From the IMG/VR virus record IMGVR_UViG_3300022602_000266, positions 1 to 33,978 of that record: a stretch of 33,978 bases of DNA; one strand, 5' to 3'. This document shows positions 1,991 through 30,123 of the stretch, in pieces. Origin of the DNA: a virus. Both the position numbers and the translations under genes were made by a program. The first letter of the stretch is position 1. Each line of letters begins with the position of its first letter. The notes beneath the pieces are model-generated. The model saw only the letters and a list, made by a program, of their open reading frames with translations, did not search any database and was not told where the DNA came from.

Positions 1991-1991
1991 C

Positions 1992-1999
1992 TATAAATA
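1992..1999 (+). promoter_or_regulatory. TATAAATA late-type promoter element before portal
   Basis: TATAAATA lies in the 34-base gap between terminase and portal, 25 nt before the portal ATG. The 13-mer TGACTATAAATAA at 1988-2000 occurs again exactly at 7444-7456 before another gene block. It matches the T4 late promoter core TATAAATA. Transcription starting about 7 nt downstream would leave a leader of about 18 nt that includes GGAAAA. Confidence 0.6.
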
Positions 2000-2024
2000 A
2001 CTAATAAACAACTGGAAAAATAAT

Positions 2025-4346
2025 ATGTTAGATTTGAAAAATGTTGTAATAAGCAATCTAAATGGGCATACAGGAATGATGGCCCGTTTTGTGAAGATGA
2101 AGAGCTTGTTAGACCAAAAGTGCGCAGCAAATTTGCGTTTGTTAGCAACAAAGAATAATATTAACCGCACAAGTGATTATCATTATCTAGTATTACCCGT
2201 AAATGAATCAACAGATCCAATGAATGGATTGGATTATATTCATCCAGTTGTAAAACCTGTTGTTGATTATGCTACAAGTGTTATAACAAAAGGAATGGCA
2301 CAAAACGGTGAAATTAATTTTGAATTTGTTGCTGATAATGAAGCCGATGAAGCGGCAGCACGACAAGCAACAGAAATGGTTCATAAATTATTGAACCAAA
2401 ACAATGATCCTCACTTTATCCTACAACACTGGGTAATGGATGCTTGTTTACATAAAAATGGAGAAATGATGGTTGCACCTATGCGCGAAAGTTTTGTGCG
2501 TTATGTAACTACATCAGGAACAGAAGATCAATTATTGGCATTTGAACAACAGGCCGCAGAAGCAGGATTGAAAGCCAAAAGATCTAGCAAGCGCAAACGC
2601 CATGTGGATATGCAAAAGGTTATGGCCGAGACTGCTGAATTTAGTCAAGGTGTACCCGAAGCACAACGCCAAGAAATTATACAAACACACATAGACAATT
2701 TTAAACATCTTGCTGATGCTGATCCTGAAGAAGATCCCGAAGCAATTAAATTAGGATTAAAACTTCCTGAAAGCATTGAATTGCGAGACATGCCGGGTCA
2801 TATTCGTGATAGTATTCGCCGCAATACAATTTATGATGCAGAATATAAATTAACTGGTTATAACATTAATGTTAAATTTAGACCAATTGCACAACATTAT
2901 TGGATGTGTGATCCAACAGTTATCAGTATTGAAGAACAACCATTTTGTGGCTTTTACAAGCCTATGTCAATTCAAGAAGCAACCGAATTATATCCCGATA
3001 TCGATTTAGAGGAGTTTAAAGTCTATGCCGAATATTCCAATGTGGGTTCATATCAAGCTGGATCACTCCTTAACAATTTGGCTATTCATGCTCGTGATAG
3101 TGTGCCTATTAACGGACTTCCTGCACAAGGTTATTCCGCACAGGAGCCTGAAGCAAGACAAGTTACTGTTCTTACTGTTTGGAATCGTTACGATATTGAT
3201 AATGATGGAGAGTTGGAACTTATTGAACTTATCTACAGTGGCCAATATGTTATTTCAGCTCGTGAAGTAGAATTTATACCAGTAGCAAATATGGTTCCAA
3301 AACCACTCGCACAAAATTTTTATGGTATGGCTATTGCCGAATCAGTAATCCCAATGCAAGAATACATGACTGGTGGATACAGAGCTGAATATCTATTGGG
3401 ATTGTTACAAGCAACTCCAAGATTAGGTGTTAAACCAGATCGTGTTGATTTTGAACAAATACAAGATGGCGAAGCAGCAATCTTTATTTTAGATAGTAAA
3501 TTTAATCCTGCAACCGATGTGTATGCAATGCCAGTACCAAATGGCAATCCACAATTCTTGGATAACACAATGAATCGTATGCAACAGGATCAAATGGCCA
3601 TGGTTGGTATGACAAGTCCACAAGATGTGTTTAATCCAGAGATTATGGATCCGGGCAATAGTGGTGCTAAATTAAATTTGGCATTAAGCCCCAATCAAAT
3701 TATTCAAGACAACACAGTTAAAAATTGTGCAGAAGGTTTAAAAGATGCTATTTGGTTGATATGGCGCACATTAATTGCACATGGTGATGATTATGGTGTT
3801 AAGAAACTAGCACAACAATTTCACCCTGAAGGCAAAGCAGAGTTTATGGATTACAAAGCATTTGATGACATGAACTTTAACGAGCGTAAAACTATTCACA
3901 TCGATCTTGCCCTAGGCATGAAGAGTGAAGAAAATAGTTTACAACGCAGTCAAATTATCAAACAAGCACAAAATGGACTGGCACAAGAAATTGCTATGTT
4001 AAGTCAAAGTGGTTCATTGACCAAGGCTGGGTTTAAGAAAATTCGTAAACCCTATGAAGATATGCTTTATACTTTAGGGGTAAAACAAGCCGACATTTAT
4101 TTGCCCACAGAAGAAGAAGTTATGGAAATGGTCAAACAAAGTAAACAACAACAAGCTCAGCAACAACAACAAGCTGCACAGTTGGCACAAGAAATGCATC
4201 AAGCTGATATGGCAAATAAACAAGCCAAGACTAGTCTTGATACAGTCCGTGCACAACAAATTCAAGCAGATGTTGCAGGCAATAGTGCCAAAATGCAACT
4301 TGATGGTGCTAGTTTAATTGGTGAACATAAAGCCAGAGCTTTTTAA
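2025..4346 (+). CDS. Portal protein
   Basis: This 773-residue protein is close in length to the P22-type portal (about 725). It forms the dodecameric channel through which the terminase packages DNA and to which the adaptor attaches. The N-terminal half carries portal-like segments (HPVVKPVVDYATSVITKG near residues 70-90), and the central section around residues 445-470 has the conserved helix GGYRAEYLLGLLQATPRLGV. The C-terminal 70 residues are Gln/Ala-rich and probably coiled coil, like the barrel extensions of P22-type portals. Its place between terminase and scaffold/capsid is the standard one. The ribosome-binding site is weak (GGAAAA), and a TATAAATA element lies 25 nt upstream. Confidence 0.92.
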   Translation: MLDLKNVVISNLNGHTGMMARFVKMKSLLDQKCAANLRLLATKNNINRTSDYHYLVLPVNESTDPMNGLDYIHPVVKPVVDYATSVITKGMAQNGEINFEFVADNEADEAAARQATEMVHKLLNQNNDPHFILQHWVMDACLHKNGEMMVAPMRESFVRYVTTSGTEDQLLAFEQQAAEAGLKAKRSSKRKRHVDMQKVMAETAEFSQGVPEAQRQEIIQTHIDNFKHLADADPEEDPEAIKLGLKLPESIELRDMPGHIRDSIRRNTIYDAEYKLTGYNINVKFRPIAQHYWMCDPTVISIEEQPFCGFYKPMSIQEATELYPDIDLEEFKVYAEYSNVGSYQAGSLLNNLAIHARDSVPINGLPAQGYSAQEPEARQVTVLTVWNRYDIDNDGELELIELIYSGQYVISAREVEFIPVANMVPKPLAQNFYGMAIAESVIPMQEYMTGGYRAEYLLGLLQATPRLGVKPDRVDFEQIQDGEAAIFILDSKFNPATDVYAMPVPNGNPQFLDNTMNRMQQDQMAMVGMTSPQDVFNPEIMDPGNSGAKLNLALSPNQIIQDNTVKNCAEGLKDAIWLIWRTLIAHGDDYGVKKLAQQFHPEGKAEFMDYKAFDDMNFNERKTIHIDLALGMKSEENSLQRSQIIKQAQNGLAQEIAMLSQSGSLTKAGFKKIRKPYEDMLYTLGVKQADIYLPTEEEVMEMVKQSKQQQAQQQQQAAQLAQEMHQADMANKQAKTSLDTVRAQQIQADVAGNSAKMQLDGASLIGEHKARAF

Positions 4347-4349
4347 AAA

Positions 4350-4356
4350 CTAAATA
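4350..4356 (+). promoter_or_regulatory. CTAAATA promoter-like element
   Basis: CTAAATA lies in the 31-base gap after portal, 21 nt before the ATG at 4378. Sequence and spacing fit the TAAATA family found before many blocks in this genome. No second promoter hexamer is evident. Confidence 0.45.
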
Positions 4357-4377
4357 ACACAGTTAATTGGAATTGAA

Positions 4378-4734
4378 ATGATAGAAGATGAGGTAATAGA
4401 TGCATTCAATAATCGACCCCGAGTTGATTTGAATAATATTAAAACAATGTCACCTGCACAGCAAGACAAAGTCAAAGTCTGGGGCAGTCAAGCTGAAAAT
4501 TTGTTGGCAAATAGAGAGTTTGCAATGTTTGTACATCAATTTAAATTTGAAATGACCGATGCGTTGATAGATATTAAAACGCATACCGAACAAGATAATA
4601 CAACACGCATAGCTGTAAGTAATCAGCTTGCGGGTATAGAGAGTTTTATTACAATGCTGAAGAGAGCAGTGTATTTTAAAAACCGGGTGGTAAGTTTACA
4701 GCAAGGAAAACTAGTTGAAAACCCCAACCCTTAA
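4378..4734 (+). CDS. Hypothetical protein between portal and scaffold
   Basis: This is a 118-residue protein of unknown function, predicted soluble and largely helical, without signal peptide or membrane segment. It sits between portal and scaffold, so a role in head assembly is plausible from position only. The ribosome-binding site is poor (TTGGAATTG). The next gene begins 14 bases after its stop. A CTAAATA element lies in the gap before it, which could give this gene and the scaffold their own late transcript. I do not recognise a family. Confidence 0.8.
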   Translation: MIEDEVIDAFNNRPRVDLNNIKTMSPAQQDKVKVWGSQAENLLANREFAMFVHQFKFEMTDALIDIKTHTEQDNTTRIAVSNQLAGIESFITMLKRAVYFKNRVVSLQQGKLVENPNP

Positions 4735-4748
4735 CTTAAGGAGATACT

Positions 4749-5945
4749 ATGGACGCCATAGTCGCTGATCGCCCTAATCTCACACCTGAGACGGTACCGA
4801 TCGAAAATGTCAGTGTAGGCTTGGATGCAATAGCTGCAAAGATGGCCGCAATGAAAGAACAAACATTGCGTAACCAAATGAAAGCTACCGAGAACGCTGA
4901 AGCAGGGTCAGAAAAGCCGGCAGGCCAAACTGCTCCTGTGGCACCAGAAGGAGTCAAAGTTGATGATAATAATGTTGTCGACAATGATACTGATGTTTTA
5001 GAGCCAGAAATCGAAGCAACTAATGCTAACGATAGTGAAGTTTACGATGAAGCACAAGCCCCTCAAGAGGTAAGCCCAGCAGATTCGAGTAGTGAAGATA
5101 TTATTGATTTCTTGGAGTTTGCAGAAACAAACCCCAACGCTAAATTTAAATTTATGCGTAATGGAAAAGAAATTGAAATTGACGCGAAGAAAGCCGCAGC
5201 TATTTTAGGCCAAGGAGCAGCGATAAGTGAAGATGCAAGACAATTAAAGATTGAAAAAGCTGAGTTCGAGGAATACTTACAAAATAAGCGAGCCGAATCA
5301 GAAGGTCTTTTATTGGCAATGGAATTTACAATTCAGCCTCAATTGCAAAAAGCATATGATGAAATTGTAAAAGTACAAGGTTACCAAACTACCTTTCAGC
5401 AACAGTTGGCAGCAACGAATGATCCCGGAGCACAAGCCCGCATTCGTGCTAACATGCAAAGGAATGAAGCTTACATTCAGCAACAAACTCAATTGATTAA
5501 TCAATTGAAGCCAAATGTAGAACAATTCTATAACATGCGTAGTCAACAAGTGCAACAAGTTCTTGAAAATAATCGCAAGAGTTTCAAGGACAAGGAGTTA
5601 AAGAACCAGTATGTTTACAATGAAGTTCGTGAAAAAGTAGCAAAAGGTTGGAGCGGAGCGGAAGGACAATTGGTCCCTGGTATTAAAAATATTGATCTTA
5701 TATCAAGTGATGAGCATTTAATGACTTTGTTACGCGATGGATTAAAATATCGAGATAGACCAGCAACCAAATCAGCAGGCAATAGCATTGCTGCGTTAAC
5801 AACCCGCAAAGCAGGTACAACCATTGCAAGTAGAGCCGGAAATCAAATGTCTGATCTTCAACAAGCAGCCAAGTCGGGCGATAAAAAAGCCCAAGATAAC
5901 TTATTAGTGGCCAAGCTACAAGCATTACGGTCACAAAGAAGATAA
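4749..5945 (+). CDS. Capsid scaffolding protein
   Basis: This 398-residue protein lies directly before the major capsid gene, with a strong ribosome-binding site (AAGGAG, 7 nt before ATG). The first 120 residues are acidic and low in complexity. The middle (about 150-300) is a long Gln/Glu/Lys-rich helical region likely to form coiled coil. The C-terminal 60 residues are basic and end in LRSQRR. Acidic N-terminus, helical rod and basic C-terminus are the usual layout of scaffolds of short-tailed phages, where the basic tail binds the coat protein. Scaffolds diverge quickly, so the call rests on layout and position rather than a motif. Confidence 0.8.
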   Translation: MDAIVADRPNLTPETVPIENVSVGLDAIAAKMAAMKEQTLRNQMKATENAEAGSEKPAGQTAPVAPEGVKVDDNNVVDNDTDVLEPEIEATNANDSEVYDEAQAPQEVSPADSSSEDIIDFLEFAETNPNAKFKFMRNGKEIEIDAKKAAAILGQGAAISEDARQLKIEKAEFEEYLQNKRAESEGLLLAMEFTIQPQLQKAYDEIVKVQGYQTTFQQQLAATNDPGAQARIRANMQRNEAYIQQQTQLINQLKPNVEQFYNMRSQQVQQVLENNRKSFKDKELKNQYVYNEVREKVAKGWSGAEGQLVPGIKNIDLISSDEHLMTLLRDGLKYRDRPATKSAGNSIAALTTRKAGTTIASRAGNQMSDLQQAAKSGDKKAQDNLLVAKLQALRSQRR

Positions 5946-5968
5946 AAGACATTATATAGGAGATTAAT

Positions 5969-7393: not shown

Positions 7394-7417
7394 TCTTAAC
7401 GATTAGTTTGCAAATGG

Positions 7418-7439
7418 GAAAGGGCTTAGAGGCCCTTTC
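7418..7439 (+). terminator. Rho-independent terminator after the major capsid gene
   Basis: GAAAGGGC (7418-7425) pairs perfectly with GCCCTTTC (7432-7439) across a 6-base loop and is followed by TCTCTTTG. It lies 25 bases after the capsid stop. It would end the terminase-to-capsid transcript, and a TATAAATA element at 7448 can restart transcription for the tail block. Confidence 0.85.
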
Positions 7440-7447
7440 TCTTTGAC

Positions 7448-7455
7448 TATAAATA
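7448..7455 (+). promoter_or_regulatory. TATAAATA late-type promoter element before the tail block
   Basis: TATAAATA lies immediately after the capsid terminator and only 5 nt before the ATG at 7461. The surrounding 13-mer is identical to that before portal. With a T4-like start site 6-7 nt downstream, the transcript would begin at or next to the ATG, which has no ribosome-binding site. Confidence 0.65.
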
Positions 7456-7460
7456 AGTAT

Positions 7461-8066
7461 ATGAGCGAATTTGATAACTACCAAGACAAAAGTGAATTGT
7501 CTGGACCCGATCCAGAACACAATCCTGACCAGTATCGCCAAGATAAAGGTGGACTGGCAACAAAAGACAATGGAATTGCCGACAGACTATTGCAAAATGA
7601 CAAACTATTCAATGAATTGAAAAGTGGAACATGGAAACGCGAAGGCTGGAACAAGAGCAAAAACATAAAAACTACTACTGGCCGCGAAGATGGTAAATTT
7701 TTTATCAAACGCGAACAAATGAATGTAGCAGTTATTGCTGAACAATGTGCCGAATATCGTAAACGAGCCGAAGACGGTTATGTGGATCCATTAGCACCAG
7801 TAATGCCTGATGGTAAATTGGGTTATAAATGGATGGAATTGCCTGATGCAATTGCAATACAAATCGGTGAAGATTATTTTGGTGGCATGAGCTGGCATAC
7901 GATTAAACGAGATAAAACTCTTAAAGCACAATTTTATCGAGTTGTAGAACAAGAGTATCCGGCATTTATATGTTATCCTGGCGGTAAATTGCCAATACCA
8001 ATTCAAGTCCCTTATCCAGCAAAAGTAGGGCAAACAGCATTTTTTAAAGGGGCCAATTTTAGATGA
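7461..8066 (+). CDS. Hypothetical head/neck-region protein
   Basis: This is a protein of 201 residues from ATG 7461. A TTG at 7443 is in frame but would overlap the TATAAATA promoter element and the terminator tail, so I reject it. The first 90 residues are hydrophilic and probably disordered or helical. The rest contains aromatic-rich stretches such as YKWMELPDAIAIQIGEDYFGG and a proline-rich C-terminus (GGKLPIPIQVPYPAKVG). It lies between the capsid and adaptor genes and ends in an ATGA overlap with the adaptor, so it is probably a virion or head-completion protein. No family recognised. The start codon lacks a ribosome-binding site and may be read from a leaderless transcript. Confidence 0.8.
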   Translation: MSEFDNYQDKSELSGPDPEHNPDQYRQDKGGLATKDNGIADRLLQNDKLFNELKSGTWKREGWNKSKNIKTTTGREDGKFFIKREQMNVAVIAEQCAEYRKRAEDGYVDPLAPVMPDGKLGYKWMELPDAIAIQIGEDYFGGMSWHTIKRDKTLKAQFYRVVEQEYPAFICYPGGKLPIPIQVPYPAKVGQTAFFKGANFR

Positions 8067-13349: not shown

Positions 13350-15790
13350 TGGCAACAAATTTTGGTTTAACAGTTTCAAGCCCACAGGTCAATATAATTC
13401 AAAGTTTGAATTATCTGTTGGCCACACAGGCCAACGCAGCATCCAGTGTAGTAAATTATAATGGCAATGTTTTAGTTGCCAATACTACCACTGGAGCTAT
13501 TACTAGTGTTTATAGTAATGGAGCTTCTCAAACCGGAACCATTAGTTATTTGTATGGCTATGTGGATGTTAAGTATGCAAACTCGGCAACTGGTGGATCA
13601 GGTTTTACCAGCAATTGTCAATATGCAAATTATTATGGTGTTTATAACAATAACACAGGAATAGAAAGTAGCAATCCAGTAAATTATCAATGGACACAAG
13701 TTGCTGGTGGATTTGGCAATACCAGAACTTTATGGTACACTACTGGTGGTGGTAATACAATTAATTTTTCGGTTGCAAATGCAGCGCCATCAATTTATTA
13801 TGAACCAGTAATTGATAATGTGCCAATATTATTGGCAATTGTGGCAAATAGCGCAGTTATAACAAACAGTATTGCTCCAGCAGCAATTACCAATGTACAA
13901 GTTGCTGGCAATACTATTACTGGACATAATATTCAACTAGGTACAATTACAGCAAATTTATTGGCTGTAGGTACAATTATTGTTGCCAATAGTATCCAAA
14001 GTAATAATGCAATATTTGGTAATTATCAATCGCCAGGATATTGGTTAGACTCTTCTAGTGGCAATGTTCGTTTTGGCGGCAATGTATCTATTGGTAATAA
14101 TTTAACTGTGGGCAATAATGCTGTAATTGGTGGTAATGTTACTATTAATGGAATTGTTACTTCAGGAAATATCAATGCCAATGTAGTAACCACCACTGCA
14201 CTACAAACACAATCGGCTACTACAGTGGTTAATACTGTAGGTGAACAAAATGTAAATCCAGTTACTTTTGTTAATGGTAATACCAGTGTTTATGGTCAAC
14301 CAGGTTATTTATGGCCTACTAATACTCGAGGATTTGGTAGTGCAGGTGCAACAATTATTCCTACTACAAATGGCAGTGTTGTTGGTAGTCAAATTACTGT
14401 TAATTGGAATACATTTATTAATACATTGCAATACAGTTCATATAATTTAGTTGAATTATGGAAAAATGGTCAAAGTTATTTTTATCAAAATAATCTACAA
14501 AGAATAACTTGTGCTCTTCAATTAAACTTGCCTGGATCAGGAGTTACTGGTGTTACCGACATGTATACGGCCACCGGACTTAATGGTAGTTTGTTAGTCT
14601 ATAATTATCCCATTATCAATCCTGCTAATCCCGGTACTTGGTATAGTGGTGGTACTCCTAATCAAACTGGCAATGTTCAATCATTGTCAAGTGGAACTAC
14701 TTCTTCATTATATTCTCAAATTTCGGCCTTTGCCGCTCGAGACGGCGCAAGTGGCACTTATTTTGGTGCAACTTCTGTTTTGCCCAACCTTGATAGTAGC
14801 ATACCATTTTTCTCATATGCAGCAGTACCAATTGCCCAATCAGTATCATCTTCTCCGCCAACTTATGGATTTAATTCGGTGGTAGTTGGTGCTGGCGGAC
14901 AAATAATGCGTGTTCATTATAGTGGTAATGGGCCAGGAACTAATTCATATACAACATCAAGTTATGTTTCCGAAACCAGTGGAGTTTTGGCCGATTTATA
15001 TGATGTTGCAATTGGTACTTCAACAACAAGCAGTACCAGTGTATTAACTGTAGCAGTAGGTACTGGTGGAACAATACTTACTACTTCAAGAAGCTATCTA
15101 GCAGATGGGGATAATGAATATCAATTTTCCAGTCAAACTGGATGGGTTCAACAAGGATCAAATACTTCATTTAATTTAAATGCTGTTTGTAGTAATTGGC
15201 AAGGCGGAATATCTAAATGGGTAGCAGTAGGCGATTATGGTACTATTGTAACTGCTGGTGCTAGTGCCAGTGGATGGACTGTACAAAACAGTGGAACTAC
15301 TAATCCTTTATATGGTGTTGCTTATAGTGGCGGAAGATGGACGGTAGTTGGAGCCAACGGTATAATATTAACCAGCACTGATACAGTAAATTGGTCACAA
15401 ATAAGTAGTCCATATCCTGGACGAGATTTATATAGCATTTGTGTAGGTATTCAAAATAGTAGTCAAATGGTTGCCTGCGGCCAAGAAATAATGATTCAAA
15501 GTACAAATAGCGGAGTAACTTTTAGCAATTTGTATGTTGGTGGATCAAGTTTGGCCAGTAATTTAACTAGATTACAATATTATGGTAGTTGGGCTAATAT
15601 TGCAACTCAAGATGAACCACCAGCACAACAACAAATTGCCAATGGTCAAATTGTATCCGGTAGTTATACTGATAGCAATTATGTTGCCGGCAATCCGCAA
15701 GTATACTATGTGGTTGTTGGTAGTTTGACTGGCAATACTACAATCTATTCATCACAGACTAGCTTGACCGTAACTGAATTTAAACGATAA
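13349..15790 (+). CDS. Large tail protein with fibre-like middle and beta-propeller C-terminal part
   Basis: This is a protein of 813 residues from ATG 13349, which overlaps the preceding stop (TAATG). An upstream start at 13295 is rejected because it would overlap the nozzle gene by 55 bases. Residues about 185-290 (NVQVAGNTITGHNIQLGTI, NVSIGNNLTVGNNAVIGGNV) resemble shaft segments of tail-tip and fibre proteins. From about residue 560 to 740 there are repeated segments (VVVGAGGQIMR, LTVAVGTGGTILTTS, WVAVGDYGTIVTAG, WTVVGANGIILTST). These look like blades of a BNR / photosystem-assembly-factor beta-propeller, a fold used for sugar binding. It may be a second receptor-binding protein or a tail-tip protein. 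Confidence 0.82.
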   Translation: MATNFGLTVSSPQVNIIQSLNYLLATQANAASSVVNYNGNVLVANTTTGAITSVYSNGASQTGTISYLYGYVDVKYANSATGGSGFTSNCQYANYYGVYNNNTGIESSNPVNYQWTQVAGGFGNTRTLWYTTGGGNTINFSVANAAPSIYYEPVIDNVPILLAIVANSAVITNSIAPAAITNVQVAGNTITGHNIQLGTITANLLAVGTIIVANSIQSNNAIFGNYQSPGYWLDSSSGNVRFGGNVSIGNNLTVGNNAVIGGNVTINGIVTSGNINANVVTTTALQTQSATTVVNTVGEQNVNPVTFVNGNTSVYGQPGYLWPTNTRGFGSAGATIIPTTNGSVVGSQITVNWNTFINTLQYSSYNLVELWKNGQSYFYQNNLQRITCALQLNLPGSGVTGVTDMYTATGLNGSLLVYNYPIINPANPGTWYSGGTPNQTGNVQSLSSGTTSSLYSQISAFAARDGASGTYFGATSVLPNLDSSIPFFSYAAVPIAQSVSSSPPTYGFNSVVVGAGGQIMRVHYSGNGPGTNSYTTSSYVSETSGVLADLYDVAIGTSTTSSTSVLTVAVGTGGTILTTSRSYLADGDNEYQFSSQTGWVQQGSNTSFNLNAVCSNWQGGISKWVAVGDYGTIVTAGASASGWTVQNSGTTNPLYGVAYSGGRWTVVGANGIILTSTDTVNWSQISSPYPGRDLYSICVGIQNSSQMVACGQEIMIQSTNSGVTFSNLYVGGSSLASNLTRLQYYGSWANIATQDEPPAQQQIANGQIVSGSYTDSNYVAGNPQVYYVVVGSLTGNTTIYSSQTSLTVTEFKR

Positions 15791-15793
15791 ATA
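15788..15793 (+). promoter_or_regulatory. TAAATA element 5 nt before the gene at 15799
   Basis: TAAATA overlaps the stop codon of the preceding gene (TAA at 15788-15790) and is 5 nt before the ATG at 15799. The gene has no ribosome-binding site. The same TAAATA-5/6 nt-ATG arrangement occurs at 7450 and 28959. Reinitiation after the nearby stop is an alternative way to translate the gene. Confidence 0.45.
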
Positions 15794-18700: not shown

Positions 18701-19452
18701 GTACCGTAACTACCGATAATAATACCGGAGATACTGTTAATACCACAGATAGTACAGATAATGGAACAACCGGAGTTAATGTAGATTCTGGTACTGCCGC
18801 AGCAGTTGGGGCGACCACCGCTGCCGCAGCAACTACTCCTAGTTCAACAACACCAACAACGCCAAGGCAAGGATTCTTACCAATACCAACATTTACCGGC
18901 GAAGCATTAACTAATCCTGGTGTTAATCCTGGATTTATCGAACCTAGTCCTCAATATAATCCCACTGGAGTTCCTGGTATGGATCAATATTATTGGGGAC
19001 AACAAGGAACAAATGCTCCGAATGCTCCTACAACAGGATATGGTCAAGCTAGTCAATTGGGACAATTGATATCACCACAGGCTTTGGGTTATCCAACTGC
19101 TCAAAATATGGCCGCAGTTGGATTACAATATAATCCCACAATTGGAACATTACAACGCGATGTTTATAATAATCCAGTACAAATGAATACTGTGGCTCCT
19201 GTAGTTCCAGGAGTAGCAAATGCTTACGGACCAACTACACCTGCTCAGGCAGCAACTGGCGTTGGTGGCGGGGTTCGTTTAGGACAAAATCTAAATTATA
19301 TAGCTCCTGCAACACAATTGTCAGGAACTCCCAGCGCAGGACTAGTTCCGGCTGGCACATTTACAGCAATTAGTCCCACAGATTTAGCCGCACAATTACA
19401 AGCTCAAGCAACTGCTGCTGGTTTGGCTTCTGCAGGTACAACCGCCACTTAA
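15799..19452 (+). CDS. Very large Ala/Gln/Thr-rich virion protein (probable internal or ejection protein)
   Basis: This is a 1217-residue protein of low complexity. Residues 177-227 and 380-430 are two copies of a 51-residue unit (LQQLQ.AQP.LYN.LQS.GLLQQ). They flank a 140-residue Gln/Ala helix-forming stretch encoded by CAA, GCA and GCT runs. Near 495-515 is a short Ala/Gly/Leu-rich helix (ATVGAAALLAVG). Residues 720-835 are Gly/Ala-rich, possibly membrane-active (repeated VTGKPITA and IATGKPITA). Three copies of a DGST/NTGDT unit lie between about 836 and 980. The C-terminus (PRQGFLPIPTFTGEALTNPG) is Pro-rich. Position before further internal proteins suggests a DNA-ejection protein. No enzymatic motif found. 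Confidence 0.8.
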   Translation: MATQTAQQLQYQQMILNQIKAGMTPTAFSLSIAGWTPAQAQAAYSATNPAPTNASIAQQPVAPTPVAPTQTFAQSLGLGNLPAAQQTEINNLNSTQQAQLQQQITQAGASAPTTVAQVQNIAGKFLTTTPGTTEYQSAQAAQQVEQATGPATPVAPTSTSASTTSTQTPAQQQATALQQLQSAQPALYNQLQSAGLLQQAAAQAVSTNTDIGVVANQTIATYQQQQAQALAQQQEAAQAQAQAQAQAQAQQAAAAQQAAAQAAQAQAAAQAAQVAQQNAATQAAQQAAAQQAQTTAQQQAQQVTAQNQTTAAQQAAAATAAQQAAAQQAAQITAQNQAQAQAQQTAATAAQQAEAAQQAQIQAKNTTTPVAPTPTDPVAAAIQELQQNQPNTYNALQSTGLLQQVAQQAVSSGQDIGVLGSQAVATYQQQQQAAYVAANPELQQNTITALGQQQAADAAASQAQAAAENPSNTFSGLENTISSGLSSIGSFVDHNIPGGWATVGAAALLAVGITDPTLLSSASDGTLTADQLTAAGVDPTTVSTNIANGLTDGTIPPESVGLSSAPTVGTDGAITTTAADGATTTTAADGTVSTTAADGSVAPTTASGTPSTVSALNTDQVSALNTTPVTPANTVSVTLPDGTVGSYDATTGTVYNADGTVNAAATNAAPVPGEGAQVASNASGLPQAATNAADTTPVAPTTDTTGTSIFSGSSINPIANGLTNLGITSPIANGALTGAATSAAIDAVTGKPITASGLLTGAATGGIASEIGSYLPDSTGSAVQAAINGATTAAGANAIVDIATGKPITATSLAEQAVVGAAVGTAVSGYNSSVNNANGTTTYTWDDGSTMTTNSSGTPTSVTDSSGAVIGLGTVNPTTGAVTPNSATVQPVATEDNGDGTTTTTYADGSTVSQNANTGDTTGITAPTTPTTTATVPTNEIPTTTATAPAGIIDNGNGTSTQTYDDGSTVTTDNNTGDTVNTTDSTDNGTTGVNVDSGTAAAVGATTAAAATTPSSTTPTTPRQGFLPIPTFTGEALTNPGVNPGFIEPSPQYNPTGVPGMDQYYWGQQGTNAPNAPTTGYGQASQLGQLISPQALGYPTAQNMAAVGLQYNPTIGTLQRDVYNNPVQMNTVAPVVPGVANAYGPTTPAQAATGVGGGVRLGQNLNYIAPATQLSGTPSAGLVPAGTFTAISPTDLAAQLQAQATAAGLASAGTTAT
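16327..16479 (+). repeat. Internal duplication, copy 1 (51 codons)
   Basis: Encodes residues 177-227 of the 1217-residue protein: helix-forming LQQLQSAQPALYNQLQSAGL and onward to TIATYQQQQ. Copy 2 is at 16936-17088. The two share roughly 60-65 percent of residues by eye, and the DIGV and ATYQQQQ positions are fixed. Confidence 0.85.
16936..17088 (+). repeat. Internal duplication, copy 2 (51 codons)
   Basis: Encodes residues 380-430, IQELQQNQPNTYNALQSTGL and onward to AVATYQQQQ. It is the second copy of the unit at 16327-16479, separated from it by the Gln/Ala-rich stretch. Confidence 0.85.
18307..18735 (+). repeat. Three DGST/GDT-type repeats in the 1217-residue protein
   Basis: Three units of about 25 codons, at roughly 18307, 18487 and 18658, encode NG-type turns followed by T.TY.DGST and N.(N/S)G(D)T, with TTTYTWDDGST, TTTTTYADGST and TSTQTYDDGST as cores. 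They look like short beta-hairpin repeats of a rod or linker. Confidence 0.7.
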
Positions 19453-19465
19453 ATAATAGTAAATA
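19450..19465 (+). promoter_or_regulatory. Two TAAATA elements before the gene at 19495
   Basis: TAAATA occurs at 19450-19455, on the stop codon of the preceding gene, and again at 19460-19465. They are 39 and 29 nt before the ATG at 19495, which has a ribosome-binding site (CGGAGA). The second gives a predicted leader of about 22 nt, close to the spacing at other blocks. Confidence 0.45.
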
Positions 19466-23627: not shown

Positions 23628-24113
23628 ATGGATTTAACTGAATTAGTAAATGAATTAGAAGCTACATTTGCAGCAAATTTTGTTGCTTATTACCGTACTC
23701 ATGTTGCACATGTTAACACAAAAGGTCGTAACTTTTATCAAGATCACAAACTACTTAAGAAGATCTATATTTTCATGCAAGAACAAATAGACCCCCTTGC
23801 TGAAAAGTTACGCACTTGTGGAGCCATGATGCCCAATGCTTTAAGTGTTACCTGTGAATTAAGTCCAATAAAAGATCAACCCACAGAAGGCTCAAGCACA
23901 ATGTTATTAGAGCAAGTGTTAAATGATGTTTTAGAACTAATAGACCAATATCACAAATTAGCAATAGAAGCCGATAAAGTTGGTTATATTGATATATCCA
24001 ATATGAGTGCGGATGCGATAGGCCAATTAGCCAAGTACAAATGGCAATTAGAAGCCACTGTGGAAAACCCCATTGCTGGGGTAGTTGCAAAAAGTCCATT
24101 TGAAATGTTTTAA
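23628..24113 (+). CDS. dps: Dps-type ferritin-like protein
   Basis: This is a 161-residue protein of Dps length. The ferroxidase signature is complete: His28 (THVAHVNTKG), His40 (FYQDHKLL), Asp55 and Glu59 (EQIDPLAEKLR). The intervals of 12, 15 and 4 residues equal those of H51, H63, D78 and E82 in E. coli Dps. The helix after LRTCGAMMP and the C-terminal helix (DAIGQLAKYKWQLEATVEN) fit the four-helix bundle. Dps dodecamers oxidise Fe(II) with peroxide, store iron and, in many bacteria, coat DNA. It starts 3 bases after a probable internal-protein gene, so it is probably expressed late and might protect DNA or enter virions. There is no basic N-terminal tail, so DNA binding is uncertain. Its end overlaps the convergent gene by 4 bases. 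Confidence 0.88.
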   Translation: MDLTELVNELEATFAANFVAYYRTHVAHVNTKGRNFYQDHKLLKKIYIFMQEQIDPLAEKLRTCGAMMPNALSVTCELSPIKDQPTEGSSTMLLEQVLNDVLELIDQYHKLAIEADKVGYIDISNMSADAIGQLAKYKWQLEATVENPIAGVVAKSPFEMF

Positions 24114-24430: not shown

Positions 24431-24675
24431 TTTACCGCGTATACATGATCTGCATGTACGATATGAAAATTTTCAGTATTGGAAATTTTAATCGGCATTG
24501 CATTGCCCCAATTTAACACAATCAAATCATCAACTTTGAGTGTTTCAACTTCGGAACCAACACTGAGTATTCGACCCAATGTAACCAAACTTGTATCTCT
24601 AAATACAATGCCACTGTCACTGGAACTTTCACTTTCTTGCATTTTAACTGTAATGTATTTTCCTATTGCTTTCAT
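24427..24675 (-). CDS. GroES-like co-chaperonin
   Basis: This 82-residue protein follows the cpn10 pattern from end to end: MKAIGKYITVK (strand 1), the mobile-loop region SSSDSGIVFRDTS (about 17-29), GRILSVGSEVETLKVDDLIV (34-53) and the C-terminal HIVHADHVYAVK, which matches the usual ILREDDILAVL end. At 82 residues it is shorter than GroES (about 97), mainly because the roof loop is cut down to LNWGNAMPI. T4 gp31 is the known case of a phage co-chaperonin that replaces GroES on host GroEL to fold the capsid protein, and a similar role for the large capsid protein here is plausible. It overlaps both neighbours by ATGA. Confidence 0.85.
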   Translation of the reverse strand: MKAIGKYITVKMQESESSSDSGIVFRDTSLVTLGRILSVGSEVETLKVDDLIVLNWGNAMPIKISNTENFHIVHADHVYAVK

Positions 24676-25001: not shown

Positions 25002-25518
25002 TGTCGTCCCATGTAATGCGTTTGTATGCAATACTGCCATTGACAGTAAATCCCATTTGAGTATGTAAGCGCATAAATGCAGTTTGTTCGGCTCTTATGC
25101 TACTATTGCTTAATACTGGTATTTGATGTATCTTGCAATATGCTTCCCATTGTTCTAATACCTGTGCAACTAATTTTATTCTATTGCGTATGCTCAATGT
25201 CAAATCCAAATGTATAAACTCACCTCCAGCTATTTCTTCTTCGCTATAGGCCAAATAGTTTCCACGATCCAACCAAGCCCACGCAATCAGTCTTGAGTTT
25301 TGCTTGGCCACGGTAATTAAATCTCGATTGGTGTTATAAGCCATGTCTGTGATAGCATGATTTAAATTATAACTCATGCGTGTACGATTAGGAGTAAACA
25401 CTCCCAATATTTCTTGGCTGTAATTGGTCTGCATCAAATCCATTATCGGTTCGATGTCATTGTGTGTTGCTCGACTCCAGAGCCAAGCATCCTTTTCGGT
25501 ATGACTAAACTTATTCAT
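24979..25518 (-). CDS. GNAT-like acetyltransferase (probable)
   Basis: This is a 179-residue protein, first gene of the minus operon, with a strong ribosome-binding site (GGAAAGGAAAAG before ATG). The order of elements suggests a GNAT fold: an N-terminal RATHNDIEPIMDLMQTNY helix, a central strand LIAWAWLDRGN, then HLDLTLSIRNRIKLVAQVLE, which occupies the place of the acetyl-CoA-binding segment. The C-terminal part (RAEQTAFMRLHTQMGFTVNG) matches the usual GNAT ending of a helix followed by GF. The R/Q-x-x-G-x-G/A loop is replaced by SIRNRI, so catalytic competence is uncertain. The substrate is unknown. Confidence 0.7.
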   Translation of the reverse strand: MNKFSHTEKDAWLWSRATHNDIEPIMDLMQTNYSQEILGVFTPNRTRMSYNLNHAITDMAYNTNRDLITVAKQNSRLIAWAWLDRGNYLAYSEEEIAGGEFIHLDLTLSIRNRIKLVAQVLEQWEAYCKIHQIPVLSNSSIRAEQTAFMRLHTQMGFTVNGSIAYKRITWDDNESTSNI

Positions 25519-25581
25519 AACTTTTCCTTTCCACTGTGTTTTATTTAGCTAAATATTATTATATTGAAAGGAAAAGTTATG
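25516..25581. promoter_or_regulatory. Dyad-symmetric bidirectional promoter region
   Basis: A 15-base arm at 25516-25530 (CATAACTTTTCCTTT) is the exact inverse of 25567-25581. A 14-base perfect palindrome TATTTAGCTAAATA at 25542-25555 shares the same centre (25548.5). The palindrome gives GCTAAATA on both strands, each 23 nt before a start codon (25579 plus, 25518 minus). The outer arms carry the ribosome-binding site and start codon of both genes. Confidence 0.75.
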
Positions 25582-26136
25582 CCCAGCGGTAGATTTAGAG
25601 ATCTAAGCCAATACATACAAATTGGTAATTTTTTAATTAATGAAAATAAATTTTTGGACAGTTTAGAAGAGCTGGCCACAGGATGTATAGTATCTCGCCC
25701 TGAAATCGGTCGTCATAGACAGGGATATTCTATGTACAGTATTGTTAGAATCAGTGATAACAAACGAGTTATGACTGTGGGACATAGAATTGCTATGATG
25801 TTAAAGTTACGAAAAGAACTAACGCATGATGAATTTGTTATTCATACCTGCAACAATAATCGTTGCGTAAATCCCACGCACTTGATCATTGGCGATTATT
25901 ATACCAAAGACAAGATAATGGTTCAAAAAGGACATGTACATCATAGACACAGTCTTGCACGATCAAATAAAATTCCACGAAAACAAGCCAACAGAAAATA
26001 CAAATACACTGATCAAGAAATCACTTGGATTAGAAATGCTGACAGCCGTGACATAGCTGCACGATACAATTGTTCACGAATGAATGCCAGTAAAATGCGT
26101 TGGGAATGTCGTAATAGATATCAATGGTTAAAATAA
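25579..26136 (+). CDS. HNH endonuclease with C-terminal helix-turn-helix
   Basis: This is a protein of 185 residues from ATG 25579 behind a GAAAGGA ribosome-binding site. An in-frame TTG at 25564 would lie inside the leader. The HNH core is IHTCNNNRCVNPTHL (88-102) with His89, Cys91, Cys96, Asn98 and His101, preceded by GHR with His69. This is the form seen in homing and phage-type HNH nucleases. Residues 143-183 (YTDQEITWIRNADSRDIAAR) look like a helix-turn-helix DNA-binding tail, common in free-standing homing endonucleases. It may be a selfish element or a packaging- or takeover-related nuclease. It faces the acetyltransferase-like gene across the bidirectional promoter. Confidence 0.88.
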   Translation: MPSGRFRDLSQYIQIGNFLINENKFLDSLEELATGCIVSRPEIGRHRQGYSMYSIVRISDNKRVMTVGHRIAMMLKLRKELTHDEFVIHTCNNNRCVNPTHLIIGDYYTKDKIMVQKGHVHHRHSLARSNKIPRKQANRKYKYTDQEITWIRNADSRDIAARYNCSRMNASKMRWECRNRYQWLK

Positions 26137-26146
26137 AGGAAACACA

Positions 26147-26404
26147 ATGATTTACAAAAACCTAGTACACAAATTTGAATATACTGTTAGAGAGTTGTTG
26201 GGCGCCGACATGACCGAACAAGAAATCTATAGTTTGGTCAGTCTTACTTTAAATGATTGGTTAGTGGATGGCGAATTCACTGAAGAATACCGACAAATGG
26301 CTGCACAAGCTCTAGCACTAAAAGAACAGTTGGTACAGGAACCAGAACCAGAACCACAAATAATTGGTCTCAATGGTGAAACTATTACCAGCAAGCTGAA
26401 TTAA
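26147..26404 (+). CDS. Small acidic protein (hypothetical)
   Basis: This is an 85-residue protein starting 10 bases after the HNH gene with ribosome-binding site AAAGGA, so probably on the same transcript. It is acidic and helical, with a C-terminal EPEPEP stretch. No family recognised. Its last codons form one arm of a 9-base inverted repeat with 26475-26483. Confidence 0.75.
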   Translation: MIYKNLVHKFEYTVRELLGADMTEQEIYSLVSLTLNDWLVDGEFTEEYRQMAAQALALKEQLVQEPEPEPQIIGLNGETITSKLN

Positions 26405-26483
26405 CCTGCTTTCGGCATTGTGGAGGAAATGGTGAAAACTGTTTCCACTGCATCGAGCTAGTACACCATTAATCGGTTAATTC
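26398..26483 (+). ncRNA. Candidate structured RNA or long-stem element
   Basis: GAATTAACC (26398-26406) pairs perfectly with GGTTAATTC (26475-26483). Inside, AATGGTG (26428-26434) pairs with CACCATT (26464-26470). An alternative inner hairpin is GGAAA/TTTCC (26425-26429, 26442-26446). Nested perfect stems in a 94-base gene-free stretch suggest a folded RNA. It is not a tRNA: there is no cloverleaf or T-arm, and the outer stem is 9 bases. Function unknown. Confidence 0.4.
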
Positions 26484-26502
26484 GCGAGTATTTAACATTT
26501 GC

Positions 26503-26535
26503 AAAACACCGGTTTTTATGCAATAATGCTAAATA
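26503..26535 (+). promoter_or_regulatory. Promoter module AAAACACCnnTTTTTA ... TAAATA
   Basis: AAAACACC (26503-26510), TTTTTA (26513-26518) and GCTAAATA (26528-26535) recur with identical spacing at 27434-27466. The TAAATA end is 20 nt before the ATG at 26556, which has a GAAAGGA ribosome-binding site. Confidence 0.55.
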
Positions 26536-26555
26536 TATATTTGAAAGGATATTTT

Positions 26556-27248: not shown

Positions 27249-27430
27249 GACAACATCGTGCACCAAAAAGCATTCCATTGGAGTTTCACAAGTATCACAA
27301 TGTTGAGATAAGACCCTCACAAAAGATGCGGGGACAGGGCTATTACCATTGTTTGAATTGTGACAAATGGGTAGCGTGGTTAAGCAAAAGCGACAGTGAA
27401 GCAGCAAGGCAAATGGGCCTGCTAAAATAG
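27245..27430 (+). CDS. Small CxxC protein (hypothetical)
   Basis: This is a 61-residue protein starting in an ATGA overlap with the previous gene. It has HKYHNVEIRPSQKMRGQGYY followed by HCLNCDKWVAWLSKSD. One Cys-x-x-Cys pair with nearby His residues may bind a metal, possibly as half a zinc site. Small proteins of this layout occur in aquatic phages without known function. Confidence 0.7.
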   Translation: MRQHRAPKSIPLEFHKYHNVEIRPSQKMRGQGYYHCLNCDKWVAWLSKSDSEAARQMGLLK

Positions 27431-27433
27431 CCC

Positions 27434-27466
27434 AAAACACCACTTTTTACTCCAAATACATAAATA
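27434..27466 (+). promoter_or_regulatory. Promoter module AAAACACCnnTTTTTA ... TAAATA (second copy)
   Basis: AAAACACC (27434-27441), TTTTTA (27444-27449) and CATAAATA (27459-27466) have the same internal distances as the copy at 26503-26535. TAAATA ends 24 nt before the ATG at 27491, leaving room for the AGGAG site in a short leader. Confidence 0.55.
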
Positions 27467-27490
27467 TTATATGTATAACAGGAGTAATCA

Positions 27491-27889
27491 ATGGCAACAT
27501 TTTATTACCGAACGATAAAAAAGATGGAGCCCAGACTGGGACAACGGTTCAGTACCGAGTATTACAAACAAACTCAAACCGAATACCAACGCCTTCGTGA
27601 TCATGTGCGAACCACGCTGGAAGCAGTCATACTAGCAGCCGACGAAAATCACTGCCTACAGGACCTGGAAACACCGTTAACGGGCTTTCCAAAGAGCCAA
27701 AAACAACCAAATTACACCGCCTTTGAAGTCATGAATGATCTCTTGGAACAATTGCAATTAGAGCGTGATTTACCCAATGGCATGCTGGGCCGATGGAATA
27801 GACTCTTTGCGAATTCAAGCTGGGCAATCACTTTAATCCCCGAAGCCCGACGGTTAAATACTGGATGCGAGTTCAATTATATAGATTAA
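27491..27889 (+). CDS. Hypothetical protein
   Basis: This is a 132-residue soluble protein with ribosome-binding site AGGAG, first gene after a TAAATA promoter element. It is mainly helical and charged (QTEYQRLRDHVRTTLEAVIL), with a Trp/Arg-containing C-terminal half (GMLGRWNRLFANSSWAITLI). The next gene starts 25 bases before its stop. No family recognised. Confidence 0.72.
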   Translation: MATFYYRTIKKMEPRLGQRFSTEYYKQTQTEYQRLRDHVRTTLEAVILAADENHCLQDLETPLTGFPKSQKQPNYTAFEVMNDLLEQLQLERDLPNGMLGRWNRLFANSSWAITLIPEARRLNTGCEFNYID

Positions 27890-28173
27890 ATTACCCGGGC
27901 TGGGATTTGGTCAACGAATATTATCGTTGGAATTTGACTTGGCCCCAGGGACAACAACCACGAGGACATAGATTGAGTTGTCCAGGATGTGGCAGAGATT
28001 TGAATTATCAAGCAGTCACACAAGGACATCAATGCCCGGGAACACTGACTGCAGATCCAGTAAAACCCAATCACCGAGCACAACGACGAGGTAGACCTAG
28101 AAAAAATGAAGCTGAAAGAATGCTCGGGGAATATGCTCAAAAATCCCGGCATAGAATTGTTTATAGCGAATAA
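27865..28173 (+). CDS. Small zinc-ribbon-like protein with AT-hook-like tail
   Basis: This is a 102-residue protein overlapping the previous gene by 25 bases. Residues 38-60 hold CPGC and GHQCPG, a Cys/His set that could bind zinc. Residues 73-79 (RRGRPRK) match the AT-hook core GRP flanked by basic residues, which binds the minor groove of AT-rich DNA. The two together suggest a small DNA-binding protein, perhaps a regulator, in an AT-rich genome. This is inferred from motifs only. Confidence 0.7.
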   Translation: MRVQLYRLNYPGWDLVNEYYRWNLTWPQGQQPRGHRLSCPGCGRDLNYQAVTQGHQCPGTLTADPVKPNHRAQRRGRPRKNEAERMLGEYAQKSRHRIVYSE

Positions 28174-28185
28174 TTCAGTTATAAT
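28157..28185 (+). promoter_or_regulatory. Host sigma70-type promoter
   Basis: TTGTTT (28157-28162) and TATAAT (28180-28185) are separated by 17 bases. The -10 is perfect and the -35 shares the first three bases of TTGACA. The expected start near 28192 gives a leader of about 20 nt before the ATG at 28212. This differs from the TAAATA elements elsewhere and would allow expression by unmodified host RNA polymerase. Confidence 0.55.
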
Positions 28186-28211
28186 ACAAGTTCAACCCCA
28201 GTACTAAAATC

Positions 28212-28427
28212 ATGCCCCGATACCGAGTCTGTTTAATGCGAACTCAAGAGATCACTGTAACAGCGATTGCTGATTCGGCACAAGAAGCCGAAAGAATAGC
28301 CCAAATAGAAGCCGAGACTTGGCAGTGGCCCCGGGGACAGGTTCGTGTACAAAGCACAAGAAATCTCAATGCTGAAGAAACTCATGATAGCAGGACTGCT
28401 GATCCTGTCCCAAGTAGCACCGGCTGA
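28212..28427 (+). CDS. Small hypothetical protein
   Basis: This is a 71-residue protein, the first gene after the sigma70-type promoter. RTQEITVTAIADSAQEAERI and the WQWPRGQVRV strand suggest a small alpha/beta protein. The C-terminal 20 residues overlap the next gene in another frame (59 bases). The ribosome-binding site is not clear. No family assigned. Confidence 0.6.
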   Translation: MPRYRVCLMRTQEITVTAIADSAQEAERIAQIEAETWQWPRGQVRVQSTRNLNAEETHDSRTADPVPSSTG

Positions 28428-28740
28428 AAACTGGATTAATTATGCCAGCGATGTCAAGAATCAAGACTATGACTTTGACGGCACCTCAATAACACACCAT
28501 GACAATCAAGGTCGGGTGTTAGTGGTTTGGCATAGACAAATTCAAAATAGAAATCTCGTAACGATCTCTAGAACCGAATTTCATTGTGCAAGTCTGAGTT
28601 ATAGAACTGTATATGAATTAAAATTTGAAGACACTGAATTGGTTTTAGAATCGCATCGTGAACAACAACCTTGGAGTTATGCAGTTCCCGGTGGATTAGA
28701 ATGGCGATTATTGAATTTGACTTGTCATGAATATAGATAA
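28369..28740 (+). CDS. Secreted surface-adhesin E-like protein (probable)
   Basis: This is a protein of 123 residues from ATG 28369. A GTG 24 bases upstream would lengthen the signal n-region. It begins with a signal peptide (MLKKLMIAGLLILSQVAPA, cut before ENWIN), so the product is exported. The mature part resembles the surface-adhesin E family, often seen in Betaproteobacteria: NWINYASD at the start, YDFDGTSI, RVLVVWH, a Cys in EFHCASLSYRTV, QPWSYAVPGG and a last Cys in LNLTC. The two cysteines probably form a disulfide. No other gene in this genome has a clear signal peptide. Behind a host-type promoter, it looks like a cargo gene altering the infected cell's surface. Confidence 0.72.
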   Translation: MLKKLMIAGLLILSQVAPAENWINYASDVKNQDYDFDGTSITHHDNQGRVLVVWHRQIQNRNLVTISRTEFHCASLSYRTVYELKFEDTELVLESHREQQPWSYAVPGGLEWRLLNLTCHEYR

Positions 28741-28956
28741 ATTTCCGGATCCCAAGTCCACTTGGACCGATGTCTGAGCAAGATGGGTTTGATGAGTTTG
28801 AACACAGACTCTGAGTCCGAGAACTCTTGACAGGGTAAAACACCGGTGAACCGGGACGAATCTTGATGAACGGTGATAAATCTTGGTGAAACTTGGTGAC
28901 CTGTGAAATCTACTCGCCACCTAAGCGCAACGGAATATTTTTCATAATTTTCCGAC
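28741..28956. other. Non-coding region with iteron-like repeats
   Basis: This is about 216 bases without a credible gene. It contains AATCTTGATGAA (28859-28870) and AATCTTGGTGAA (28879-28890) at a 20-base period, with GGTGA at about 28845, 28872, 28884 and 28895. The 8-base palindrome CACCGGTG (28841-28848) and the near-palindromic GACTCTGAGTC (28808-28818) lie nearby. Repeats of this kind can be origin iterons or operator sites. This stretch is the best candidate for a replication or packaging site, but nothing proves it. Confidence 0.4.
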
Positions 28957-28964
28957 GCTAAATA
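28957..28964 (+). promoter_or_regulatory. GCTAAATA element 6 nt before the gene at 28971
   Basis: GCTAAATA lies at the right end of the non-coding region, 6 nt before an ATG without ribosome-binding site. It matches the GCTAAATA of the bidirectional promoter and of 26528, and the short spacing of 7448 and 15788. It would drive the run of small overlapping genes 28971-30123. Confidence 0.6.
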
Positions 28965-28970
28965 AATTAT

Positions 28971-29375
28971 ATGACGAATCTGAACAATAGTAACATTAAT
29001 CCCCGGACTGGTCGAGTCCGGATAAGTTCACGCGGTGGCGCAAGGCCCGGTGCCGGTAGAAAGCCTGGCGGAAGTAATAAACTTAAACTAGAAGACTTGT
29101 TAAAAGACATTGAACTGCATACCAACATGACCTTTAGTCAACGCATAGCCACCAACTATCATGAGGCTATTCTCCGTGGAGACCATGCTGGAGTCCGTGA
29201 CTATGATAAGATACTGTTGGGCAAGTTGGTAGCTGACAAACAAGAAGTTGAAGTCACCAACACCGAGTCAGCTGTTGAATCCAAGCGTGAAGCATTCTCG
29301 GATGCATTACGAACTTTAAACACAGTGCATTCCGAGACTGTGACACCTATAACCGCCAGAAAGAAAAGTTCATGA
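28971..29375 (+). CDS. Basic GARPGAGRKPG-motif protein (possible terminase small subunit)
   Basis: This 134-residue protein has a Gly/Arg-rich N-terminus, RGGARPGAGRKPGG (residues 21-34). That motif is frequent at the start of phage terminase small subunits and other small phage DNA-binding proteins. Then comes a helical region (KLEDLLKDIELHTNMTFSQR, YHEAILRGDHAGVRDYDKIL). In a circular genome it lies about 5 kb before terL. The first codons contain a perfect 7-base hairpin (29002-29020, CCGGACT/AGTCCGG). There is no ribosome-binding site. The terminase role is an inference; a regulator is also possible. Confidence 0.72.
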   Translation: MTNLNNSNINPRTGRVRISSRGGARPGAGRKPGGSNKLKLEDLLKDIELHTNMTFSQRIATNYHEAILRGDHAGVRDYDKILLGKLVADKQEVEVTNTESAVESKREAFSDALRTLNTVHSETVTPITARKKSS

Positions 29376-29686
29376 TTAAACCTTTAAGTCAGACTAAAAC
29401 ATTAACTGCCGAGGCAGCATTGAATCGTCATGCTCGTGGTCAAAAGATTCAGGCCAATTTTAAAGAGCCAGAGCCTAAAACTCTTCAACCCTGGATTGCG
29501 AGTCAACAGGGATCAATAGTGCCACACAGTTCAGCTCAGGCTCAGAGAACACGACGCTACCATGAACAAATTCATGCTGCACATACGGGTGGTAGACAAA
29601 GTTCAGCAAGGATCACTGACCAACTAAATCCTGATCAGAGTATTAGTCAAGAGCGCCGACAAGGGCGCAGATTCCCAGGCCTATGA
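29372..29686 (+). CDS. Hypothetical basic protein
   Basis: This is a 104-residue Gln/Arg/Ser-rich protein with no hydrophobic core, probably disordered or nucleic-acid- or protein-associated. It starts in an ATGA overlap with the upstream gene and ends in one with the downstream gene, so it is translated as part of the set. No family recognised. Confidence 0.7.
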   Translation: MIKPLSQTKTLTAEAALNRHARGQKIQANFKEPEPKTLQPWIASQQGSIVPHSSAQAQRTRRYHEQIHAAHTGGRQSSARITDQLNPDQSISQERRQGRRFPGL

Positions 29687-30123
29687 GACCTAACTTTCTT
29701 CCTCGTAAACGATTGTGGACTCAGAGTCCTGGACCCCGGACTGGATCAGCTCCAGTTTCAGGACAGGTTCCAGAACTCCAGGCCGCCGGCTCGGTACAGT
29801 CCCTTCAATCCCCGGAGAATCCAGAACCCTATCCCAGTCTATATACTGCTCAGGACCTAGAACGATTACAAACACGGCGCCTTGAAGAACAACTTGTAGA
29901 TGGACAGGATCACGAACCCTGGGATGATTTCTCCATCATGAATATCGGTGACACCCCCTTTGTGCACAGTGAAAGTGATTTAACAAATGCACTAGAGGCG
30001 TTTCAAAAAACGGATTTCGACGAGTCCACCGTGACACCCCCTGTAGAAAAATTTCCTGTCGCACCCAAGCCCAATGCTGAACCATCAATCTGGGATCAGG
30101 GCCGTGTTTATAGACATAAATAA
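29683..30123 (+). CDS. Hypothetical Pro-rich protein
   Basis: This is a 146-residue protein. Residues 1-65 are Pro/Arg/Ser-rich and flexible, followed by a short helix (AQDLERLQTRRLEEQ), then an acidic middle (DGQDHEPWDDFSIMNIGDTP) and a mixed end (VEKFPVAPKP). It overlaps the upstream gene by ATGA, and the CATAAATA element covers its stop codon. Function unknown. Confidence 0.7.
   Translation: MRPNFLPRKRLWTQSPGPRTGSAPVSGQVPELQAAGSVQSLQSPENPEPYPSLYTAQDLERLQTRRLEEQLVDGQDHEPWDDFSIMNIGDTPFVHSESDLTNALEAFQKTDFDESTVTPPVEKFPVAPKPNAEPSIWDQGRVYRHK
30115..30122 (+). promoter_or_regulatory. CATAAATA element before the small basic gene cluster
   Basis: CATAAATA overlaps the stop codon of the gene ending at 30123 and is 26 nt before the GTG at 30149. 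The spacing is in the long class shared with the elements before 2025, 25579 and 27491. Confidence 0.45.

Follow-up and report, generated by a model that had tools for sequence, protein, structure and literature searches.

TAAATA elements resembling T4 late promoters precede genes of small podovirus-type phages without recognisable gp55

We analysed the TAAATA elements located before genes in virus record IMGVR_UViG_3300022602_000266, a stretch of 33,978 nucleotides that is referred to throughout as the window, and in the phages related to it. Judged from the DNA itself, these elements are very probably promoters of the T4 late type, which do without a -35 element; both promoter activity and start sites are deduced. 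The window carries a direct terminal repeat (positions 1..127, identical to 33852-33978), and thus represents a complete genome that maps as a circle of 33,851 bp. It belongs to a clade of small short-tailed (podovirus-type) phages with genomes of 34-37 kb, which derive for the most part from lake metagenomes. PHROGs assigned its proteins to terminase, portal, major capsid protein (MCP) and tail-type structural families and, in addition, identified GroES, an HNH endonuclease and one ferritin-like protein. At least 513 relatives of the MCP are present in IMG/VR. The comparison sample consisted of the window and 23 fetched relatives (24 genomes), several of which are circular at 35-37 kb; a terminal repeat served as sign of completeness for G001, G004, G006, G007 and G009 only, and the remaining records of 35-37 kb were taken as near complete.

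TAAATA before and within genes

With 28 copies against 38.5 expected, TAAATA is depleted in the window overall, yet it is concentrated before genes. A sense copy is present in the 45 nt upstream of 13 of the 42 starts in the window, as compared to 3.4 ± 1.7 in dinucleotide shuffles, none of which reached 13 (0/2000), whereas antisense copies occur in only two of these regions. When the 829 upstream regions of the 24 genomes were pooled, TAAATA was the most enriched hexamer (190 versus 11.3 expected, 16.8-fold); it outranked the Shine-Dalgarno (SD) sequence, and the top of the ranking consisted of TAAATA and SD sequences. Permuted hexamers, TAATAA included, were enriched only 1.7- to 6.3-fold. 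The shuffles and the hexamer ranking thus rule out chance or AT-richness as source of the set, and the TAATAA control rules out overlap with stop codons as its explanation. Ordinary sigma70 promoters do not account for it either, as TTGACA/TATAAT pairs are near background in the upstream regions overall and real at a few early sites. Under the same treatment, TAAATA ranked first in T4 late, Melnitz and S-PM2 DNA, whereas it ranked 133rd or lower, or was absent, in HTVC010P, P22, P-SSP7, MW202674 and MW202484. The original prediction, which had read the set as T4-late-type, therefore survived the comparison of frequency and spacing with shuffled sequence.

Within genes the hexamer is avoided. 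Relative to synonymous-codon shuffles, the genes of the clade contain 0.33 of the expected TAAATA copies in sense and 0.21 in antisense orientation (medians of permuted hexamers, 0.57 and 0.76, respectively). The corresponding sense/antisense ratios are 0.77/0.51 in T4-like phages, 0.86/0.58 in T4 and 0.80/0.46 in S-PM2, so that avoidance is stronger in the clade than in T4-like phages, whereas most phages without T4-type late transcription have 1.0-1.4 of expectation and P22 has 1.87 in sense orientation. Antisense avoidance would follow if ectopic promoters do harm, and translation can hardly account for it.

Box form, spacing and predicted transcripts

The distances between TAAATA and the start codon are bimodal in the 24 genomes: 45 sites cluster at 4-5 nt, and a second, wider maximum lies at about 18-29 nt. 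Two fixed distances had been proposed, which applies to the sharp short class, whereas the long class has no fixed value; the individual sites and distances given for the window (25, 21, 29, 23, 23, 20, 24 and 26 nt, and 5, 5 and 6 nt) were all found to be present and correct. An SD sequence precedes 75% of the long-class genes as compared to 6% of the short-class genes, and the start codons of the latter are all ATG. At promoter sites the hexamer is preceded by the dinucleotide AC, GC, CA or TA, which is not the case at other TAAATA copies. The 143 long-class sites show no information peak 15-40 nt upstream, where a -35 element would be located, and the DNA following the box is AT-rich, its fifth and sixth bases being 90% A/T. 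At orthologous sites the spacer varies in sequence while its length is constant.

These features agree with what has been published for T4-type systems, namely the T4 late box TATAAATA at -13 to -6, (a/g)C at -13/-12 in Aeh1 and NATAAATA in S-PM2 (PMC2988020, PMC2984593; the placement of the T4 box is derived from the positions named there and its length of 8 bp). The boxes of the clade match all three variants. Shared with T4-type late promoters, including those of Aeh1 and S-PM2, are thus the TAAATA core preceded by (a/g)C or NA, the lack of a -35 element and the AT-rich downstream DNA, and in addition the position before virion genes, the leader lengths and the avoidance in coding DNA, the last being weaker in T4-like phages. 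The clade is distinguished by its podovirus-type genomes of 34-37 kb, by the absence of detectable gp55 and gp45 and by a large, clade-wide class of predicted leaderless messages. The T4-late-type reading is further supported by the conservation of the sites at orthologous genes and by like spacing in phages that encode gp55.

If a box ends at -6, a gap of 5 nt places the predicted +1 on the A of the ATG. Short-class sites therefore likely imply leaderless transcripts, with the 4-5 nt gap being consistent with T4 geometry and +1 being a prediction. In the mechanism that we propose, the core RNA polymerase of the host, equipped with a specificity factor like gp55, would melt the DNA at [A/G]CTAAATA or NATAAATA and transcription would start 6 nt beyond the last A of TAAATA. 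A spacing of 18-29 nt would then yield a leader of 13-23 nt bearing an SD sequence, whereas a spacing of 4-5 nt would place the start at the A of the ATG or within one base of it, generating an mRNA that would be translated without a leader.

The case for a leaderless message would be clearest for the gene that directly follows the capsid gene with its hairpin. Here, TATAAATA at 7448..7455 (plus strand, as are all features below unless stated) is located 5 nt before the ATG at 7461, and a box at 4-5 nt is conserved in 24/24 genomes (conservation counts at orthologous genes allow re-assignment of starts). A terminator-like hairpin at 7416..7441, with an 11-bp stem, -17.8 kcal/mol and a z score of -3.9, follows the MCP gene and ends 6 nt before the box, so that a leader or a second promoter could hardly be accommodated before 7461. 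Similar hairpins occur in most of the orthologous gaps. The hairpin in the window is absent from the list of a consensus terminator scan, its tail having too few T. The 13-mer TGACTATAAATAA, predicted to occur exactly twice, indeed has two copies in the window, one here (7444) and the other at 1988, next to the long-class box TATAAATA at 1992..1999. The latter lies 25 nt before the portal gene 2025-4346 and is found in 21/24 genomes at 23-28 nt.

The same arrangement is seen in T4-like phages of the Melnitz type (Kyanoviridae). Eighty such contigs (L173-L252) contain a sharp class of 39 TAAATA-N5-ATG sites, with no site at 4 nt. One family, the gene after gp23, accounts for 23 of the 39, often following a terminator-like T run. 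The order of capsid gene, hairpin or T run, box and ATG is thus common to the clade and to phages encoding gp55. The Melnitz-type phages differ in having genes for gp55 and a sliding clamp and in that their box is mostly TATAAATA and not [A/G]CTAAATA. Judging from this 5-nt class, late messages of T4-like phages may be leaderless as well, a point on which no earlier report was found in the open PMC literature searched; this is not proof of novelty.

Further long-class boxes in the window are ACTAAATA at 4349..4356 (21 nt before 4378; 23/24 genomes), GCTAAATA at 26528..26535 (20 nt before 26556; both genomes that carry the gene), and CATAAATA at 27459..27466 (24 nt before 27491) and at 30115..30122 (26 nt before the GTG at 30149; TAAATA precedes this gene group in 10/12 genomes). 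Two TAAATA copies within 19448..19465 lie 39 and 29 nt before 19495, where 10/14 genomes have the element at 19-29 nt; the copy at 19450 had been left out of the original prediction, the other starts at 19460. A divergent pair of GCTAAATA boxes, together forming the palindrome TATTTAGCTAAATA, would serve the minus-strand gene at 25518 (25542..25549, minus strand, 23 nt; GNAT-like by eye; 13/15 genomes) and the gene at 25579 (25548..25555, 23 nt; 12/14 genomes). The remaining short-class boxes are GATAAATA at 15786..15793, which lies 5 nt before 15799, shares bases with the preceding TAA stop and is seen in the window only, the gene not being shared; GTTAAATA at 27853..27860, 4 nt before 27865 and within the gene 27491-27889 (4-5 nt in 6/9 genomes; its TAAATA at 27855 had likewise been omitted); and GCTAAATA at 28957..28964, 6 nt before 28971 (5-6 nt in 13/18 genomes). 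A copy at 31373, at 0 nt and overlapping a stop, is probably due to chance. Essentially no TAAATA is found before TerL, 4749, GroES and 32588, which indicates that only certain transcription units carry the signal. Just 5' of the conserved 32588 gene, the window (32475-32587) and the orthologous gaps contain hairpin-like sequence.

Some points weigh against the promoter reading. Profiles of eleven gp55 and three gp45 sequences found nothing in six frames of the clade genomes, those of gp55 also with hmmsearch --max. The antisense coding ratio of P22 is low as well (0.55, from the very small counts of 4 versus 7 copies), the 24 genomes include near-duplicates such as G009/G012 and G007/G018, so that counts are not independent, and genes were called by a simple script with starts re-examined for key families only. 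That TAAATA is instead a signal linked to translation or to stop codons, or an effect of AT-richness, is nevertheless highly improbable. The short class is indeed located where an SD sequence would be, and some copies overlap TAA stops (15788, 19450), but the permuted hexamers lack comparable enrichment, most sites lie 18-29 nt upstream of a start that has its own SD sequence, a hairpin precedes the site at 7448, and translation leaves the antisense avoidance unexplained.

Origin of the specificity factor

The original prediction had described gp55, gp33 and a sliding clamp as not recognisable. For gp55 and gp45 this holds: besides the six-frame searches, the PHROG profiles phrog_234 and phrog_12791, compared with 14 clade records, matched nothing at E<=10, and hhalign against the 45 most shared protein clusters gave at most 1.1% probability, as compared to 99.3% for the Moby and S-PM2 controls. 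For gp33, general PHROG and Pfam scans gave no family match among proteins of the window or its relatives, no gp33 profile having been built. Host clamp-binding motifs were not found in conserved clade proteins. As the factor is not recognisable in any clade genome, it would be either a divergent protein of the phages themselves or supplied in trans. The readings weighed below are thus alternatives about the origin of the factor and not alternatives to the promoter reading.

Sigma70-type promoters in the early region bear on this question. The best candidate in the window is TTGTTT-N17-TATAAT at 28157..28185, before 28212 (score 11.9), and the corresponding region of several relatives contains the consensus TTGACA-N17-TATAAT with scores of up to 16.5, in some cases overlapping a TAAATA; at the gene of G002 orthologous to 27491, the consensus overlaps CATAAATA and TATAAATA. 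Such promoters would drive the early genes, as has been proposed for RB49 and S-PM2. Their presence in relatives indicates that the clade has an early phase of its own, which weakens the idea of total helper dependence for all genes. In the early regions of G001, G002, G006 and G007, a conserved leader, ACATTG...AACATTA(A)GGAGGCTTAC, follows consensus sigma70 promoters and precedes unrelated small early genes.

The phages may possess a late specificity factor of their own that has diverged beyond recognition, a tentative reading for which the podovirus phiEco32 provides a precedent. Its sigma factor gp36 reads single-element late promoters with a start 6-8 bp downstream, and the late sigmas of phiEco32 and 7-11 are only 15% identical to each other (consensus tAATGTAtA or GTAAtg-(16)-aCTA). 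Both are podoviruses like the clade, and phiEco32 likewise has single-element late promoters; they differ in having a recognisable sigma and another consensus. Indeed, the top hexamers before clade genes do not correspond to tAATGTAtA, and no late sigma was recognised among the window's and relatives' proteins searched in PHROGs and Pfam. The early phase speaks for an own factor, as do two clade-specific non-virion proteins of unassigned role. One, encoded by 25579..26136 and present in 14/24 genomes, resembles HNH endonucleases (PHROG matches) and has a C-terminal helix-turn-helix-like domain in its predicted structure, for which the best Foldseek match is I-HmuI (weak, E 0.05); no homologue was found in MW202484. 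The other is a small helical protein (26147..26404), encoded by each of the 9 complete genomes that were clustered and a candidate for an accessory factor only. As the factor itself, the former was set aside for being HNH-like and the latter because its predicted structure has no fold match in the PDB. Also rejected were 32588-33382, the 25518 gene and 7461-8066, all three of which are present in the TAAATA-less MW202484. Against an own factor stand the failure of the gp55 profiles and of hhalign, and the conserved uncharacterised proteins being small or also encoded by MW202484. Moreover, no sigma family was detected among the 118 non-structural proteins searched from nine near-complete relatives (best 25 of 34 PHROG families; Pfam), which matched only methyltransferases, glycosyltransferases, nucleases, superoxide dismutase, ferredoxin-like and similar proteins.

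Virophages use the late promoters of giant viruses. By analogy, a co-infecting T4-like phage might supply the factor, its gp55-bound RNA polymerase, perhaps with its clamp, firing the late genes of phages that keep their own capsid; we regard this as rather unlikely, although several observations point that way. Putative T4-type promoters occur without detectable gp55 and gp45, TAAATA is strongly avoided on both strands, and the arrangement of MCP gene, terminator-like element and predicted leaderless gene recurs in T4-like phages, with which one relative shares an accessory gene (55% identity to cyanophage copies). No polymerase, helicase, single-stranded DNA-binding protein (SSB), recombinase or sigma factor was recognised among the window proteins in PHROGs and Pfam, and the same scans recognised no replication, recombination or sigma genes in the nine near-complete relatives, a trait shared with helper-dependent satellites. 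MW202484 (Podoviridae sp. ctfne034), the nearest catalogued relative, shares the virion module (TerL and MCP both ~51% identical) and 32588, but carries Erf, SSB, Cro and RusA and has no TAAATA before any gene. On the other hand, the isolated phage HTVC010P also lacks a replication gene in its deposited annotation, making such absence weak evidence. Typical satellites use the virion proteins of the helper, whereas the window encodes a full virion and packaging set of its own (TerL, portal, MCP, tail genes), and the sigma70 early promoters likewise argue against a helper, none of which was identified. A host sigma factor that by chance recognises TAAATA with no need of a -35 element would require no phage factor, but this is improbable: TAAATA is a poor sigma70 -10 element, missing the conserved final T of TATAAT, and MW202484 lacks the signal despite having the same virion module, although its host may differ.

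A TerL scan of host genomes gave only one distant match (34%). Large non-structural proteins of G003 (L120 13183-14757) and G008 (L130 280-1449) resemble small palm-type polymerases by eye; neither matches Pfam or PHROGs at E<=0.001, and that of G008 has no phage homologue. The accessory gene mentioned above (G005, L124 6510-7145) is a "ferredoxin" in PHROGs, and its T4-like cyanophage counterparts are labelled purM or ferredoxin, the database naming being inconsistent. The window also encodes an Fe/Mn superoxide dismutase (33384-33893, Pfam match), which, in combination with the ferritin-like gene at 23628, points to functions in oxidative stress, as have been reported for freshwater phages (PMC6802176).

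Implications for phage late transcription

The gp55-type late system has been described as restricted to T4-related phages (PMC2988020). If promoters of this type are conserved in unrelated podoviruses that lack gp55 and gp45, and are kept out of their coding DNA, this would point to an unknown specificity factor or to promoter piracy between phages. In an extreme form of the latter, which we consider doubtful, a widespread set of complete tailed phages would have lost their own late switch and replication genes and have their virion genes fired only by the gp55 of a co-infecting T4-like phage, making them a bacterial counterpart of virophages. Upstream enrichment combined with coding avoidance of TAAATA may provide a simple genomic fingerprint for phages under gp55-type transcription. 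Finally, the short-class sites of the clade, like those of T4-like phages, clearly exemplify late phage messages that are likely leaderless.

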